A stretch of 38,366 bases of DNA from an uncultured Clostridia bacterium (GTDB lineage Bacteria > Bacillota > Clostridia > Christensenellales > UBA1242). A model generated the notes under the pieces. The model worked only from the letters and a program-made list of their open reading frames with translations, was not told the origin of the DNA and made no database searches. The position numbers were made by a program, and so were the translations under genes. The DNA is taken from NCBI GenBank assembly GCA_944332315.1, contig CALVJT010000044.1, positions 1 through 38,366 of the forward strand. The letters are read 5' to 3'. Below, piece by piece: positions 245-20,280 of the stretch (positions are counted from its first letter, which is position 1; the number at the start of each line of letters is the position of its first letter).

Positions 245-346
245 TAATTAGGTTCCTTAAGCTTAAAAATGCTTTGAAAATTAGGAATAAATCTCTATAA
301 CATACTAAAAAGGCAAATTCTACACTTTGCCACATTTTATTAATTT

Positions 347-444
347 GGGTTTATATATTAGTGGGGGTTAGTTAAAAATTTAGCAGAAAAAGATTAGCAA
401 AGGTCTGAACTTATAGCTTGCTATACCCCAATTAATAAAGAACC
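347..444. repeat. Dispersed palindromic repeat, copy A
   Basis: About 98 bp, clearly related to the segments at 13502-13603 and 15428-15504. Shared blocks include GTGGGGG near the left end, TTAGC and AGCAAA in the middle, CTATACCCC, and AATAAAGAACC at the right end. The two ends form an imperfect inverted repeat beginning GGTT. Bases 412-425 form a perfect internal hairpin (TATAGC-TT-GCTATA). The copy begins about 18 bp beyond the stop codon of the metallophosphoesterase gene. No clean target duplication is seen, so it may be an older copy; its left boundary is uncertain by several bases. Confidence 0.75.
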
Positions 445-6863: not shown

Positions 6864-7227
6864 TGGTGGAAGCGGTGGGAATTGAACCCACGTCCACACC
6901 AAATTTGCAGTGCTTTTCTACGCGCGTAGATTGTTTTCAAAATTCCACAAAGAACGCCCACAATCAAAACCCGCTTTGCTATAGGTTGCCTAGTTCAATT
7001 AAGGCACAACCATAACCTTAATCTATCGTTCTAACTTAAAGCCTAAATTGTAAACGAACGATTATTTGCAATTAGACTAGGCATTCTGACTAAGCAGCCA
7101 ATGCCATTGCACCATTAGGTGCCGAAACATTTTTATTTGCGTTTATATTTAATTTCCCTTTTAACGAAGTGGGACTTCGGCGCGCTTTTTCACGCAAATT
7201 TTGGTATGTCGAAGCCAAGTCGCCCCC
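6864..7227 (-). ncRNA. ssrA: Transfer-messenger RNA
   Basis: The 364-nt RNA rescues stalled ribosomes together with SmpB. Its ends pair as a tRNA-Ala-like acceptor stem (GGGGGCG at the 5' end, CGCTTCC before ACCA at the 3' end), and the T-arm GTGGGTTCAATTCCCAC is visible near the 3' end. The conserved 5' stretch GACTTGGCTTCGACA is present. The tag frame starts at GCA (7138-7140) and ends at TAG (7090-7092), giving ANKNVSAPNGAMALAA; the ALAA ending is the classic degradation tag recognised by ClpXP, whose genes lie further along this window. It lies 21 bp downstream of smpB, matching the Bacillus order secG-rnr-smpB-ssrA. Confidence 0.97.
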
Positions 7228-13243: not shown

Positions 13244-13249
13244 ATTATA
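13244..13249 (-). promoter_or_regulatory. Possible -10 box directly before spoIIE
   Basis: A perfect TATAAT lies six bases before the spoIIE ATG on the minus strand. No good -35 hexamer at 16-18 bp (or at the 21 bp used with Spo0A in Bacillus) and no clear Spo0A box are visible, so this may be chance in AT-rich DNA. Confidence 0.3.
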
Positions 13250-13493
13250 TCATTGAGAAATTGTTATAAAATAAAATGTTTTGTATTTTTTTGTAAATAT
13301 TTGTAAAATTATATTTATAGCTTTTATTTTAAGAAATTTTTAGAATACATAAAATAATGTATAAATATTTTTATTTAACTGAATATTCTTTAATTGCAAT
13401 ACGCCCCACAAAAATAAGTCGTATATTGCTTAAAATTTTAGTAAGCAACCAATATAATTATAAAAAAATAAATATTATATTGTTTTATAAAAT
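13250..13493. other. Very AT-rich stretch without a gene
   Basis: Runs of A and T dominate. A 71-codon plus-strand reading frame (13357-13572) has no ribosome site, biased composition and runs into repeat copy B, so it is not called. Nothing else is recognised. Confidence 0.5.
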
Positions 13494-13501
13494 AAAAAAT
13501 G

Positions 13502-13603
13502 TGTTCTACAATATTCGTGGGGGGGTATCAAAAATTAAGCGAAAAGAGCTTAGCAAAAGTTCGAATCTATAACTCACTATACCCCCATTAATAATAAAGA
13601 ACC
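13502..13603. repeat. Dispersed palindromic repeat, copy B, with 8-bp target duplication
   Basis: A 102-bp element with imperfect terminal inverted repeats: left TGTTCTACAATATTCGTGGG and, read from the other strand, right GGTTCTTTATTATTAATGGG. About 16 of 21 positions agree from GTTCT through the G-run. The inner arms GGGGGTAT and ATACCCCC pair well. The element is flanked by identical 8-bp direct repeats AAAAAATG (13494-13501 and 13604-13611). The right flank is part of the terminator of the RluA-type gene. There is no room for a transposase gene, so it would be a non-autonomous miniature element. Confidence 0.85.
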
Positions 13604-13627
13604 AAAAAATGTTGCAGAACAACATTT
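13604..13627 (-). terminator. Rho-independent terminator of the RluA/CBS operon
   Basis: An 8-bp stem (AAATGTTG 13607-13614 with CAACATTT 13620-13627) with a 5-nt loop is followed on the minus strand by a T-run that ends exactly at repeat copy B. It lies about 65 bp past the RluA-type stop codon. Confidence 0.88.
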
Positions 13628-15148: not shown

Positions 15149-15166
15149 AAATTTCCTCGTTTTTAT

Positions 15167-15195
15167 ATTTTACCATATAATTAGGTATTAATCAA
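15167..15195 (-). promoter_or_regulatory. Sigma-A promoter of the CBS/RluA operon
   Basis: TTGATT (15190-15195), 17 bp, TAAAAT (15167-15172) on the minus strand with a TGn extended -10 element. Confidence 0.8.
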
Positions 15196-15204
15196 TCTAA
15201 TTGA

Positions 15205-15229
15205 ATGGTTTAACCATAAATTATGGTTA
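15205..15229. promoter_or_regulatory. Operator-like overlapping palindromes
   Basis: Three alternating half-sites: ATGGTT-T-AACCAT (15205-15217) overlaps TAACCATAA-A-TTATGGTTA (15211-15229). Both palindromes are perfect around a single central base. They lie 10-34 bp upstream of the -35 box of the CBS gene, a usual place for an activator or repressor. Confidence 0.5.
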
Positions 15230-15419
15230 GGAAAATAAAAATTGCATTCTCATCCCCCATCCAACTCGTAAATATATTCATTTACGTCAATATTCATTGT
15301 AAAACTTTTTATGATAGTGCAAAACAGATTTATTTTCATTATGCTACAACGCTCTTATTTTGCTTTATTAATAAACAATTAATAAGTTTCAACACAACTA
15401 CCATAGTACATTAAAATAT
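15230..15419. other. Intergenic stretch without a gene
   Basis: No supported gene. A 63-codon plus-strand reading frame starting at 15223 has no ribosome site and no recognisable content. Confidence 0.4.
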
Positions 15420-15427
15420 ATATAAAA

Positions 15428-15504
15428 TGTTCTATAAAATTCGTGGAAATTAATATTTTAGCAGAAAGAGCATAGCAAAACTTACGATATACCTATTAAA
15501 AACC
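15428..15504. repeat. Dispersed palindromic repeat, copy C, with 8-bp target duplication
   Basis: A 77-bp shorter relative of copies A and B. The left end TGTTCTATAAAATTCGTGG matches copy B closely, the middle shares TTAGCAGAAAGAGCATAGC, and the right end is AAAACC. About 20 bp before the right end are missing relative to copy B. Identical 8-bp direct repeats ATATAAAA flank it (15420-15427 and 15505-15512). The right one is part of the T-tract (minus strand) of the terminator of the 86-residue gene. Confidence 0.8.
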
Positions 15505-15508
15505 ATAT

Positions 15509-15546
15509 AAAAAAACTGCAAAGATAATAGTTATTCTTTGCAGTTT
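15509..15546 (-). terminator. Rho-independent terminator of the 1232-residue/86-residue gene pair
   Basis: A 12-bp stem (AAACTGCAAAGA 15513-15524 with TCTTTGCAGTTT 15535-15546) with a 10-nt loop and a T-run on the minus strand; it begins 7 bp past the stop codon. Confidence 0.92.
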
Positions 15547-15553
15547 CTGTTAA

Positions 15554-15814
15554 CTAATCATCGGTTTTTAACATATCTCTCAAATCTTTTAGTAAATCAT
15601 CATTAAGAGTATTGAGTTTTGTTAACGCATCAGTATAAGCGTATTTTAATTCATCTGGATACGCTCCACTTTGTGCAACCTCATTCATAATTTGTGCAAT
15701 TTTAATTACTTCAGTTATGTTTTTATCATCAGTTTTGATAATCATTGTTTCCAAAACATGAAAACATAATTCGATGATTTTAGGATCATTTGCATCTATA
15801 TTTGTTGCTTCCAT
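15554..15814 (-). CDS. Small hypothetical protein, 86 residues
   Basis: A short acidic, helical protein rich in Asp, Leu and Ile with no membrane segment and no motif I recognise. It has a strong ribosome site (AAAGGAG) before the ATG and starts 11 bp after the stop of the 1232-residue gene, so it is the second gene of that operon and ends at a strong terminator. The close spacing suggests that it works with the large protein, perhaps as a binding partner, but nothing in the sequence shows how. Confidence 0.75.
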   Translation of the reverse strand: MEATNIDANDPKIIELCFHVLETMIIKTDDKNITEVIKIAQIMNEVAQSGAYPDELKYAYTDALTKLNTLNDDLLKDLRDMLKTDD

Positions 15815-15825
15815 AATAATCTCCT

Positions 15826-18800
15826 TTATTCCTTACCTGTATTTTTTTGTTTTTGCATATCTTGCTTAAATAATTCTGCTTTTTTAGCATCTACGACAAC
15901 ATTCGTTTTACCGTACGACTCAAAACTCCCTATATAACCGCCATTCTCTAACGATTTTTCAATATGATCTTTATTTAGTAAATATTTGTGCAATAGTATT
16001 TTATCTTCGAGCAATAAATTACTTTCAGAATAAATTTGTTTTGAAATTATCTTGGCATCGTTATTCCCTTTAGGAACAACATCATAAATTCTAAAACACT
16101 TAGTTCCATGTTTATCAGCCGCTTCATCTCTTTGCACAAAATTACCAAAAACTTGCATAAAACCATTAGGATCTTTTGCAACCAAATTTTCATAAATTGT
16201 CTGATTGCCAGATACTGTTCTAGTTATTAGTTTAGTTCTATTTTTAATCACATTAGCATATTTAACAGTTTTACCATTTTCCAAATCGTCAACATCTAAA
16301 AGCTTTCCGATGGATGGGATGGAAGATTTATATTCTTCTTTAGCAATATTGCTATTCGGCAATACTGAATTTGCAAAAAAGTTTACAAAACCAGATGCAG
16401 ATTTAGATTGTTCCCATTGTTGTAACAATTCTTTCTCTTTACTAGATAAATTATCTGATTCCTTAAAGCGCTTGTAAGTTCGCATTATATTTTCTTTTTC
16501 TTCAAGAGCAATTTGATTTAGTATAAGCACATTATGCCCTTCCAAACTTTCGGAATAGTCACTGGAGGTTAACATTTCTCCTACTAGATTGTGGCTTGCA
16601 ATCTTAGTTTTCATATCTCCACGATGGCAATTATTGAATAAGCTTTCCATTGATGCTTGGGTTCCAGCAATTTTTTGCGCTCTTTTGAATGCAAATGAAT
16701 TGGTATCCTCAATATCTGCTACTTTCTTTTTATCTTGTCGGCTCTTTTCAGCAAGTGCTTTAGACATGCTGTCAGTTATAAACTTCATAACATTATTTTC
16801 AATTTGTGCATAAGACTTAGAGCCATATGTCCCTTTGCTTGCCACTATTATTCCAACTTGTGACGGATCATCTATACTTTTAACATGCTCAGGATTTTTT
16901 ATCTTTGCCATAACTGCTGCTGCATTATTTATAATTTCGGCGGTTTTTTTATTTTCAGCTTGTTCATCGGGCGTTAACCCTGCTACTTTATCTTTACTAG
17001 CATCAATAACAACAAGCGCCATACTTTTCTTGACTTCTAATGCATCAGCACTTATTTCTGGAACATCATCAGTGACCTCAGCATTCTCAACCTTTTCCTC
17101 TGGTAAAACTTCAGGAGTCGTTTCAGCCTTATGTATGTTGTCTCGTTTTACATCCTTAGAAGGGATTACTTTTGACATAAAATCTGCTTTTGTATTTTCC
17201 TTTGGTCCAACGCCCCAAGCTCTTTCACCTTTTTCAACCAAATCAATTAATTGGATATGCAAATTTTCAACTTGTGCCTGATTCCATTTTTTAATTGCGT
17301 CTAAATATCTAGCATCACGCTCATCATCAGTCACCAGACCTTCATTTGAATCGTTTTCAGCCGATTTTTTCTCGCCATAATATTCAACATAGTTTTGCAC
17401 TTGATTTACAAAACGAATTTTTTCCTCTGGCGAAGTATCAGCACTCAAAACACTCTGCAGTAGGGTATCCAAGTCTAATACCACTATGCCATCATTTATA
17501 GATGTTGGCACTAACTCCATAGATAAAGGAGAATTTTCTATGTATTTGCCATCTTTGGTTTTTAATACCCATCCATCACCATCACCATATCTTTCTAGAA
17601 TAGTGCCGTCTAACAATTTTATTTGATTTTCATTTATAAGATCCAATGCTTCGATTCGATTTCTTATTTCCTCAATACTAACTTCAGGTTTTTTCTCTTC
17701 AATTTTATGTTCCTCTACCTTAAGCGGAGCAGTAGGTGCAACACCTGTAGTCCCCTTTATTTCGGTTCCTATCGAAGATTCTCCGATACCATAGTGCTCT
17801 TTTGTCCTTTTGATATTTTCTTCGTAATCGAAATTTTCAGTTTCTACATTATCATTAATATCACTTTCAGCTGTAGAATCTAGAGTAGACGGTTCTGTTT
17901 CATCTTTTATAATTTCAGCGTCTTCAGTATTTTCCTCTATTGGGTTAATTACCATTTCGACATCAGATAAGGCGCTTGTTGGCGGAGTTCCAACCAAGAT
18001 TTCAGCATCTTCTGCGTCAACAGCAGGAGATACAGCACCAAAACTTGCTGTACTAGATGGACCCTCTGACATATAACGACTGACATGTATATGATCAGAC
18101 GCTTCGTCAGTTGTACCAGAATCATCACCTATGCCAGGCTCTGCTGATGCCCCAGTACTAACACCTACACTAGCTTCATGTTCTTCTGCTGAAGCACTAG
18201 CAGCTGGAGCGCCAACTTCAGCCCCTACTCCAGCCTCTGCACCAGCCTCAGTCGATGTACCAACTCCAGCACCAGCTTCAGCTCCTGGCGTTTCTGCAGT
18301 TTTATCAGCTTCTCTTACTAACTCAACTGGAGTTAAGGTATATTCCATTTTACTAGCGGTAGGCAAATCATACTCACCAAAAGTAGCATTATCTCTTGTT
18401 GTAGTCCTAGACCTTTTTGTAAAAAGCATATCCTCGTACACTTTTCTTATGTCAGCAGCCGTAAATTTTGAATTTGCGTTGTATCTACTTATAGAATCTG
18501 TTACAGTACTTGCAATAAACTTCATTAAGTATGGATCATTTACATAATCTTCAAGCCCATTTATTCTTTGTGCCGCACTCAATATAAACCCTTGCGAAAG
18601 AGTGTATCTTTCTTGAGCAGTAAGATTAGGCACAGTTTTTATAATTTCACTAGAAATTAAATCGGAACAAATCGCATGAATATTGCTGTGAAAAGTTGTA
18701 TTATCCTTAAAAGCCTTTCTATACTTGTTAAGCAATTCTTGTTTTTCCTCAAGAGGCAAACCTAAATAGTCACGATCCTTTTGCAACTCTCTTTCAAAAC

Positions 18801-19524
18801 TATTGATGCTAGTACTTATAGACATAGTAGCACATTGAGCAATATATCTTGTTAATATTTGAGAAGGATTAAGATCATCCGTCCTCATATAAAGCACTCC
18901 GCTCAAATTATTAAATTTTTCGCCTCTTAAAATCATTTTTGCTGAATGTTTAATTGAGGATGCTCTGGAGTGCATAAAAATATTTGCGCCTCTAGGGCCA
19001 GATGTTGGATGCAACTTGATACCAGTCACTTTAGATAATTCATCACAAATTGCTAAAACAGCATCCATAGATTCGCTTTGTATTTTATCAACAACCTTAT
19101 CATCGCAGACTTCGCTTTTTTCAAGTTTAAGTATTCCTCTTGGCTTTACATCTATAATCATAGATGGATCATAATACACATTGCCATCTTTATCATATAC
19201 GGGTATTGCATAAGGTGCAAGCCTTAATTTTTTTTCTGCAACATCTTTAGCGCTTATCATAGAATCAAAATTTTGTCCTGTAACAAAGCGCATTTGCATC
19301 AAATATTCTATAAACATCTTTAGTGTAACTCTAGATGTACTAGAATCCACCTTGCCATCAGCTTTTGCTCTTGCGCTATCAGATTTGATGCAGTTCATAA
19401 GAACATTCATTGGGGTTTTGCCCGAGACATATTCTCTTAACAAATTGAAATCTATTTCTTTCCTTTCGTTAAAAGCTTTTAATAAAGCAATTTCTTCTTC
19501 TGGGCTCAAACTATCTATAGCCAT
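15826..19524 (-). CDS. Large cytoplasmic protein of unknown function, 1232 residues
   Basis: I do not recognise this protein. Residues 1-405 look folded and mostly helical, starting with an acidic helix (SPEEEIALLKAFNERK). Residues 410-475 are a low-complexity Ala/Gly/Glu/Ser/Pro stretch with AEAG- and GVG-type repeats, followed by an acidic, probably disordered region to about 610. A short motif-like beta segment (about 650-700, GDGDGWVLKTKDGKYIE) and a long helical C-terminal part follow. There is no signal peptide, membrane segment, P-loop or metal-binding signature that I can see. ATG at 19524 is preferred because AAAGGAG lies upstream; the frame is open 12 codons further back. It has a good promoter and is followed by an 86-residue gene. 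The codon choice in the Ala-rich stretch is locally more GC-rich than the surroundings. Confidence 0.85.
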   Translation of the reverse strand: MAIDSLSPEEEIALLKAFNERKEIDFNLLREYVSGKTPMNVLMNCIKSDSARAKADGKVDSSTSRVTLKMFIEYLMQMRFVTGQNFDSMISAKDVAEKKLRLAPYAIPVYDKDGNVYYDPSMIIDVKPRGILKLEKSEVCDDKVVDKIQSESMDAVLAICDELSKVTGIKLHPTSGPRGANIFMHSRASSIKHSAKMILRGEKFNNLSGVLYMRTDDLNPSQILTRYIAQCATMSISTSINSFERELQKDRDYLGLPLEEKQELLNKYRKAFKDNTTFHSNIHAICSDLISSEIIKTVPNLTAQERYTLSQGFILSAAQRINGLEDYVNDPYLMKFIASTVTDSISRYNANSKFTAADIRKVYEDMLFTKRSRTTTRDNATFGEYDLPTASKMEYTLTPVELVREADKTAETPGAEAGAGVGTSTEAGAEAGVGAEVGAPAASASAEEHEASVGVSTGASAEPGIGDDSGTTDEASDHIHVSRYMSEGPSSTASFGAVSPAVDAEDAEILVGTPPTSALSDVEMVINPIEENTEDAEIIKDETEPSTLDSTAESDINDNVETENFDYEENIKRTKEHYGIGESSIGTEIKGTTGVAPTAPLKVEEHKIEEKKPEVSIEEIRNRIEALDLINENQIKLLDGTILERYGDGDGWVLKTKDGKYIENSPLSMELVPTSINDGIVVLDLDTLLQSVLSADTSPEEKIRFVNQVQNYVEYYGEKKSAENDSNEGLVTDDERDARYLDAIKKWNQAQVENLHIQLIDLVEKGERAWGVGPKENTKADFMSKVIPSKDVKRDNIHKAETTPEVLPEEKVENAEVTDDVPEISADALEVKKSMALVVIDASKDKVAGLTPDEQAENKKTAEIINNAAAVMAKIKNPEHVKSIDDPSQVGIIVASKGTYGSKSYAQIENNVMKFITDSMSKALAEKSRQDKKKVADIEDTNSFAFKRAQKIAGTQASMESLFNNCHRGDMKTKIASHNLVGEMLTSSDYSESLEGHNVLILNQIALEEKENIMRTYKRFKESDNLSSKEKELLQQWEQSKSASGFVNFFANSVLPNSNIAKEEYKSSIPSIGKLLDVDDLENGKTVKYANVIKNRTKLITRTVSGNQTIYENLVAKDPNGFMQVFGNFVQRDEAADKHGTKCFRIYDVVPKGNNDAKIISKQIYSESNLLLEDKILLHKYLLNKDHIEKSLENGGYIGSFESYGKTNVVVDAKKAELFKQDMQKQKNTGKE

Positions 19525-19550
19525 ATACAATCTCTCCTTTGTTTGCTTAT

Positions 19551-19579
19551 AGTTTATCACAATTTAAACTAAAATGCAA
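19551..19579 (-). promoter_or_regulatory. Sigma-A promoter of the 1232-residue protein gene
   Basis: TTGCAT (19574-19579), 17 bp, TAAACT (19551-19556) on the minus strand with a TGn extended -10 element. Confidence 0.7.
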
Positions 19580-19938: not shown

Positions 19939-20204
19939 GCTGTGCTAGGTGGGGAGCTAGCGGTGCCCTATTCCTACAATCCGCTATAGTAGGACTGAAT
20001 GCCGTTTTCGGTGTCTATCAAATACTGCAAGTATCAATTTACAATGTTGAACTCAAGGTCTTGTGCAATATTAACCTTCGAACCATGTCAGAGCTTGACC
20101 GCAGCAGCATTAAGGAGGAGCTGATATGTGCCACAAGGGCGCTTTGGGGGAGTTGGCAAGTTGATGGCTACTTTATTTGAAGGCAACAACAACGGATGCA
20201 CAGT
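19939..20204 (+). ncRNA. ffs: Signal recognition particle RNA, large Firmicutes type
   Basis: About 266 nt. The 5' part has the conserved Alu-domain-like start GTGCTAGGTGGGGAGCTAGC, followed by GGTGCCC and later GAATGCC. The S-domain signature ATGTCAG...AGCAGCATTAAGG at about 20083-20115 is the Ffh-binding region. CTGTGC (19940-19945) pairs with GCACAG (20198-20203), closing the molecule. Clostridia and Bacilli carry this long form with an Alu domain, while most Gram-negatives have only the 4.5S RNA. The RNA is the scaffold for Ffh in co-translational targeting of membrane proteins. Exact ends are inferred from the promoter and the end pairing. Confidence 0.93.
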
Positions 20205-20206
20205 AT

Positions 20207-20280
20207 GCAGGTGTAGTTTAGTGGTAGAACACAAGCTTCCCAAGCTTGTCGTGAGGGTTCGATTCCCTTCACCTGCTCCA
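20207..20280 (+). tRNA. tRNA-Gly (anticodon CCC)
   Basis: A 74-nt tRNA with acceptor GCAGGTG/CACCTGC, T-arm GAGGGTTCGATTCCCTT, anticodon stem CAAGC/GCTTG and loop TTCCCAA, which puts CCC (20239-20241) at the anticodon for GGG codons. The 3' CCA is encoded. It begins only two or three bases after the SRP RNA, and no promoter lies between them, so both are probably cut from one precursor. Confidence 0.95.

Follow-up and report, generated by a model that had tools for sequence, protein, structure and literature searches.

Copy C, a 77-bp element in the 38,366-nucleotide stretch of DNA from an uncultured Clostridia bacterium analyzed here (the window), is very probably a non-autonomous MITE with ISL3-type ends that was presumably mobilized in trans and landed in the A/T tract adjoining a terminator hairpin. 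This reading draws on the membership of copy C in a MITE family, an 8-bp target-site duplication (TSD), ends homologous to those of ISL3 elements, empty sites in congeners, and an enrichment of both the MITE and complete ISL3 elements next to terminator stems. Terminators throughout this work are predicted ones.

Copy C and its MITE family

The preliminary description placed a 77-bp relative of two other repeats, copies A and B, between two copies of the octamer ATATAAAA, and the sequence bears out both its coordinates and its description (Table 1). The TSD of copy C is perfect. The claim that the right-hand octamer is part of the T-tract of a terminator holds as well: on the minus strand the tract TTTTATAT coincides exactly with the right-hand duplication and abuts a perfect 12-bp stem, formed by AAACTGCAAAGA (15513-15524) and TCTTTGCAGTTT (15535-15546) around a 10-nt loop. 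This hairpin follows the stop codon of the 86-aa ORF, closing a minus-strand operon. The upstream gene of this operon encodes a 1244-aa protein with no match in Pfam and NCBIfam, whose C-terminal part is conserved within the genus (30-45% identity).

Table 1. Features of the window at copy C and at the related copies A and B
Feature	Position	Strand	Basis or remark
Left target-site duplication ATATAAAA of copy C	15420-15427	.	Identical to 15505-15512
Copy C, ISL3-derived MITE, 77 bp	15428-15504	+	Alignment A1, model R1, B-C alignment
Right target-site duplication ATATAAAA of copy C, the distal T-tract of the terminator	15505-15512	.	Sequence
Predicted intrinsic-terminator hairpin of the 1244-aa/86-aa operon	15513-15546	-	Sequence; terminator in four congeners
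86-aa ORF, last gene of the operon	15554-15814	-	ORF list; no Pfam match
1244-aa ORF, GTG start, upstream of the 86-aa ORF	15826-19560	-	ORF list
Left TSD of copy B, AAAAAATG	13494-13501	.	Sequence
Copy B, same MITE, 102 bp, near consensus	13502-13603	+	Model R1, 86.6 bits
Right TSD of copy B, AAAAAATG	13604-13611	.	Sequence; overlaps base of terminator after RluA-family gene
Copy A, same MITE, approximate ends	341-437	+	Model R1 match 352-442, 75.8 bits

Copies B and C share 63 identities in 76 aligned columns, with a score of 69 against a shuffled maximum of 25.5. Copy C is 25 bp shorter, having lost 4 bp near the left and ~22 near the right, which is close to the loss of about 20 bp near the right end reported earlier. 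In this internally deleted copy the left end is kept, and the right terminal inverted repeat is badly decayed; the assignment of copy C to the MITE family is based on its left half and on the family context. The family model R1, built from an eleven-copy alignment and from sequence only, matches copy C with 45.6 bits (E 1e-11).

Queried with the C region, the 1.33-Mb genome initially gave 15 matching places; model R1 finds 97 matches there at E up to 1e-3, a count that may be a lower bound, with 150 of 2246 candidates scored. The family element is ~101 bp long (median 98 bp, range 74-107), its consensus starts with GGTTCTATAATATTCGTGGGGG and finishes with CCCCCATTAATAATAAAGAACC, and an internal motif, TTTAGCAGAAAGAGCTTAGCAAAA, is conserved in many copies; many copies are decayed. 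Copy C, like other MITEs, is short (<500 bp) and has no coding capacity. Under stricter filters, matches among 59 genomes of the same bacterial family are confined to the genus of the window, where one congener has three and another has one. In congener G001, three diverged relatives of 114-120 bp (L041, L043 and L044) may form a sister MITE family that arose from a similar ISL3.

The target-site duplication is a property of the family. The bases flanking both ends were compared over 87 copies, with flanks from different copies paired as the null: identity peaks sharply at 8 bp (0.644 vs 0.42 in the null, z = 12.1) and is weaker at neighboring lengths (z = 5.7 at 7 bp, 4.7 at 9 bp). A perfect 8/8 duplication is present in 14 copies (16%), as against 0.1% of mismatched flank pairs. 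The duplications are strongly A/T-rich, and the earlier reservation that AT-rich flanks reduce the weight of the 8-bp match was not upheld by this comparison.

Probable ISL3 parentage and empty sites

The left end of the MITE agrees at 18/22 positions with the left ends of Clostridia ISL3 elements, of which GGTTCTATAATAAATGTTGGGG is the type in complete copies; the right end agrees at 18/22 with the ISL3 right end of a sister species (congener G004), with 80% identity over 40 bp. Both ends are matched, and the MITE ends therefore correspond in polarity to the IS ends. The complete elements, sampled from Herbinix, Acidaminobacter, Fusibacter, Thermobrachium, a Lachnoclostridium and Clostridia MAGs, are flanked by A/T-rich 8-bp duplications. 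The MITE thus shares with the ISL3 family (PF01610, NF033550) its terminal repeats (GGTTCTATAAT... and GG(C/T)TCTTTGTC...) and an A/T-rich 8-bp TSD; copy C differs in being 77 bp long and gene-less.

The ISL3 transposase (PF01610) occurs in 2 of 98 same-family genomes, that of the window and that of one congener. The congener gene is nearly full (NCBIfam NF033550, 257.9 bits with a cut-off of 180; Pfam PF01610). The genome of the window carries only a short transposase remnant, a 44-position match at a contig end. One MITE copy (L009, G000:C62:28972-29070) is nested in this remnant and is directly adjoined by another right-end-like sequence, TGTTCTTTATTATTA. An intact ISL3 transposase was not found in the draft genome (77 contigs, in whose gaps full IS copies may fall), which counts against taking the MITE as currently mobile.

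Synteny of the C locus extends to all four sequenced congeners, which share the large gene, the 86-aa gene, a CBS-domain gene, an RluA-family (pseudouridine synthase) gene and spoIIE; the CBS-domain gene beside the operon is 80-89% identical across them. A terminator is predicted after the 86-aa gene in each of the four, and the MITE is absent both from this site and from the B site in the RluA-spoIIE gap, where a terminator is likewise present. The empty terminator to which the preliminary description looked in relatives thus exists in all four, and the terminator most simply predates the insertion. Apart from the MITE itself, the gaps that contain the two copies (15150-15425 and 13246-13498) exceed those of the four congeners by ~150-240 bp; the additional DNA is not a genomic repeat and may represent older decayed insertions.

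These observations bear on the suggestion that selection maintains the repeat for a terminator-linked function, as a regulatory or RNA element, and that it is no transposon, which we regard as very improbable. Its appeal lies in the conserved internal motif and in the consensus RNA, which folds well (z = -4.6), but the 8-bp duplications, the empty orthologous sites, the ISL3-like ends and the copy nested in an ISL3 gene remnant are at odds with it, as are the occurrence of both orientations and the many decayed copies. The consensus fold is a long hairpin of the terminal inverted repeats only, the fold of copy C is not significant (z = -0.82), and an Rfam search gave no match at its place; a structured-RNA reading was rejected on these grounds. 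Elsewhere in the window, Rfam matches comprise a tmRNA (6864-7227, minus strand), a large SRP RNA (19940-20203, plus) and a tRNA (20207-20277, plus).

Placement at predicted terminators

To score placement, insertion sites were restored by joining the flanks, and one detector for terminator-like hairpins was applied to both strands; the joined empty sites were scanned because a flank-by-flank scan misses sites at which the TSD cuts the tract. The controls, intergenic positions rather than insertions of another IS family, numbered 2500 and were drawn at random from 430 kb of this genome. MITE insertions are most frequent just after the 3' stem (0-16 nt: 27 observed vs 3.9 expected); a second rise, at -40 to -24, corresponds to the far base of bidirectional hairpins, and there is a dip inside the stem. 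The interval from -2 to 20 nt around the stem end holds 28 of 86 copies vs 6.3% of controls (odds ratio 7.2, p = 1e-12), and a threefold excess is left when controls are matched for the target 8-mer (15 of 44 copies vs 4.9 expected, p ~3e-5). The earlier argument, drawn from two insertions, that site choice is more likely than coincidence is thus supported, and the genome-wide comparison with intergenic positions shows the excess at terminators that this argument implies.

Since hairpins and T-tracts abound where DNA is AT-rich, such an association could in principle arise by chance or through the detector; moreover, the hairpin at copy C itself went uncalled in a generic terminator scan, because its loop of 10 exceeds the limit of 8 in that scan. 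Yet the detector used here finds terminators at 4-8% of control intergenic positions for the same intervals, the enrichment is stable whatever the stem-score threshold (odds ratio 6-9), and it is replicated in independent ISL3 elements of other genomes, which makes a chance or detection artefact the least credible of the alternatives.

Selection deserves more weight, although we consider it an unlikely explanation on its own: the MITE would insert into any A/T-rich intergenic DNA, and purifying selection would purge insertions near promoters and 5' ends, so that the survivors would lie downstream of genes, where terminators stand. The strongly A/T-rich duplications are compatible with this, and in the pneumococcus MITEs and IS are over-represented between convergent genes, which was read as a sign of parasitism (PMC3049150). 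Selection hardly explains, however, a peak within 16 nt alongside a near-normal density at 16-96 nt: given a nearby terminator, insertion at 0-16 rather than 16-96 nt has an odds ratio of 5.7 (p = 5e-8; a conditional test computed from binned placement counts). The excess that is left when intergenic sites are matched for the 8-mer also speaks against it. Removal of harmful insertions by selection probably contributes to the pattern without predicting its sharpness.

Complete ISL3 elements behave similarly: 12 of 24 lie at a terminator vs 7.3% of same-locus positions (p = 6e-8), where the elements counted have a duplication of at least 7/8, come mostly from other genera and form a sample that leans on few genomes. 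The ISL3 of the sister species (L010) extends exactly to the T-tract of a strong hairpin. Two of the remaining complete elements (L149 and L208) apparently lie inside the loop of a long hairpin, not beside it.

Terminator placement is a partial preference and no rule, seen in roughly a third of the MITE copies and in half of the complete ISL3 elements; about two thirds of MITE copies are found away from any recognizable terminator. Copies B and C share one orientation relative to their terminators, as first described, but this is no family trait: 12 copies have the terminator on the left, 16 on the right and 1 on both sides, and a fixed orientation was rejected.

Proposed targeting and its precedents

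The insertion of copy C can be pictured as follows. An ISL3 (DDE) transposase supplied in trans would bind the ~22-bp terminal inverted repeats. The A/T tract at the foot of an intrinsic-terminator hairpin would then receive the element, with 8 bp of the tract duplicated. As these 8 bp would stay on the hairpin, the terminator would retain its T-tract and no gene would be interrupted; termination may thus persist. Copy C would afterwards have lost ~25 bp and its right terminal repeat, and is for this reason probably immobile now. The transposase itself may pick terminators, through the shape or bending of the A/T tract, hairpin extrusion, or DNA exposed by a paused or terminating polymerase. 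That ISL3 transposases as a group prefer terminators, or the DNA at terminating RNA polymerase, with the terminator kept working by the 8-bp duplication, seems to us somewhat more plausible than not. The ISL3 elements of Herbinix, Acidaminobacter, Fusibacter, Thermobrachium and a Lachnoclostridium have ends like those of the MITE and, as a set, a like preference for terminators.

MITEs, ISL3 parentage and hairpin-targeting IS such as IS1272 are already known types. IS1272/TnSha1, of the IS1182 family, resembles copy C in targeting hairpins, among which several are confirmed transcription terminators (PMC4923244); it differs in that its cuts are blunt, part of the hairpin is deleted and no TSD is made, whereas copy C has an intact hairpin and an 8-bp TSD, so that an identity with IS1272-type hairpin targeting was rejected. 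The pneumococcal RUP, BOX and SPRITE are likewise small interspersed intergenic repeats, of which BOX and RUP carry TIRs and generate TSDs (PMC3049150, PMC10969869); their sequences are unrelated to the MITE, and SPRITE resembles a terminator itself, as opposed to an insertion next to one. For ISL3, a single case is on record, an ISL3-associated vanHAX insertion that lies in the terminator of an rRNA operon and is flanked by an 8-bp TSD (PMC11702846); it fits a terminator preference of this family. No report of such a preference as an ISL3 trait was found in the open-access literature searched, where the preference appears to be undescribed.

The ISL3 family is present in at least 30 phyla (PMC9208149) and has been linked to moves of resistance genes (PMC11702846). 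If the preference holds for the family, a widespread group of bacterial IS and its MITEs would have a built-in rule of safe-harbor targeting, in a testable form: a T-tract flanking the base of a terminator hairpin, an 8-bp duplication and either orientation. Such a rule suggests how a small AT-rich genome can bear ~100 copies of a mobile element at little apparent cost.
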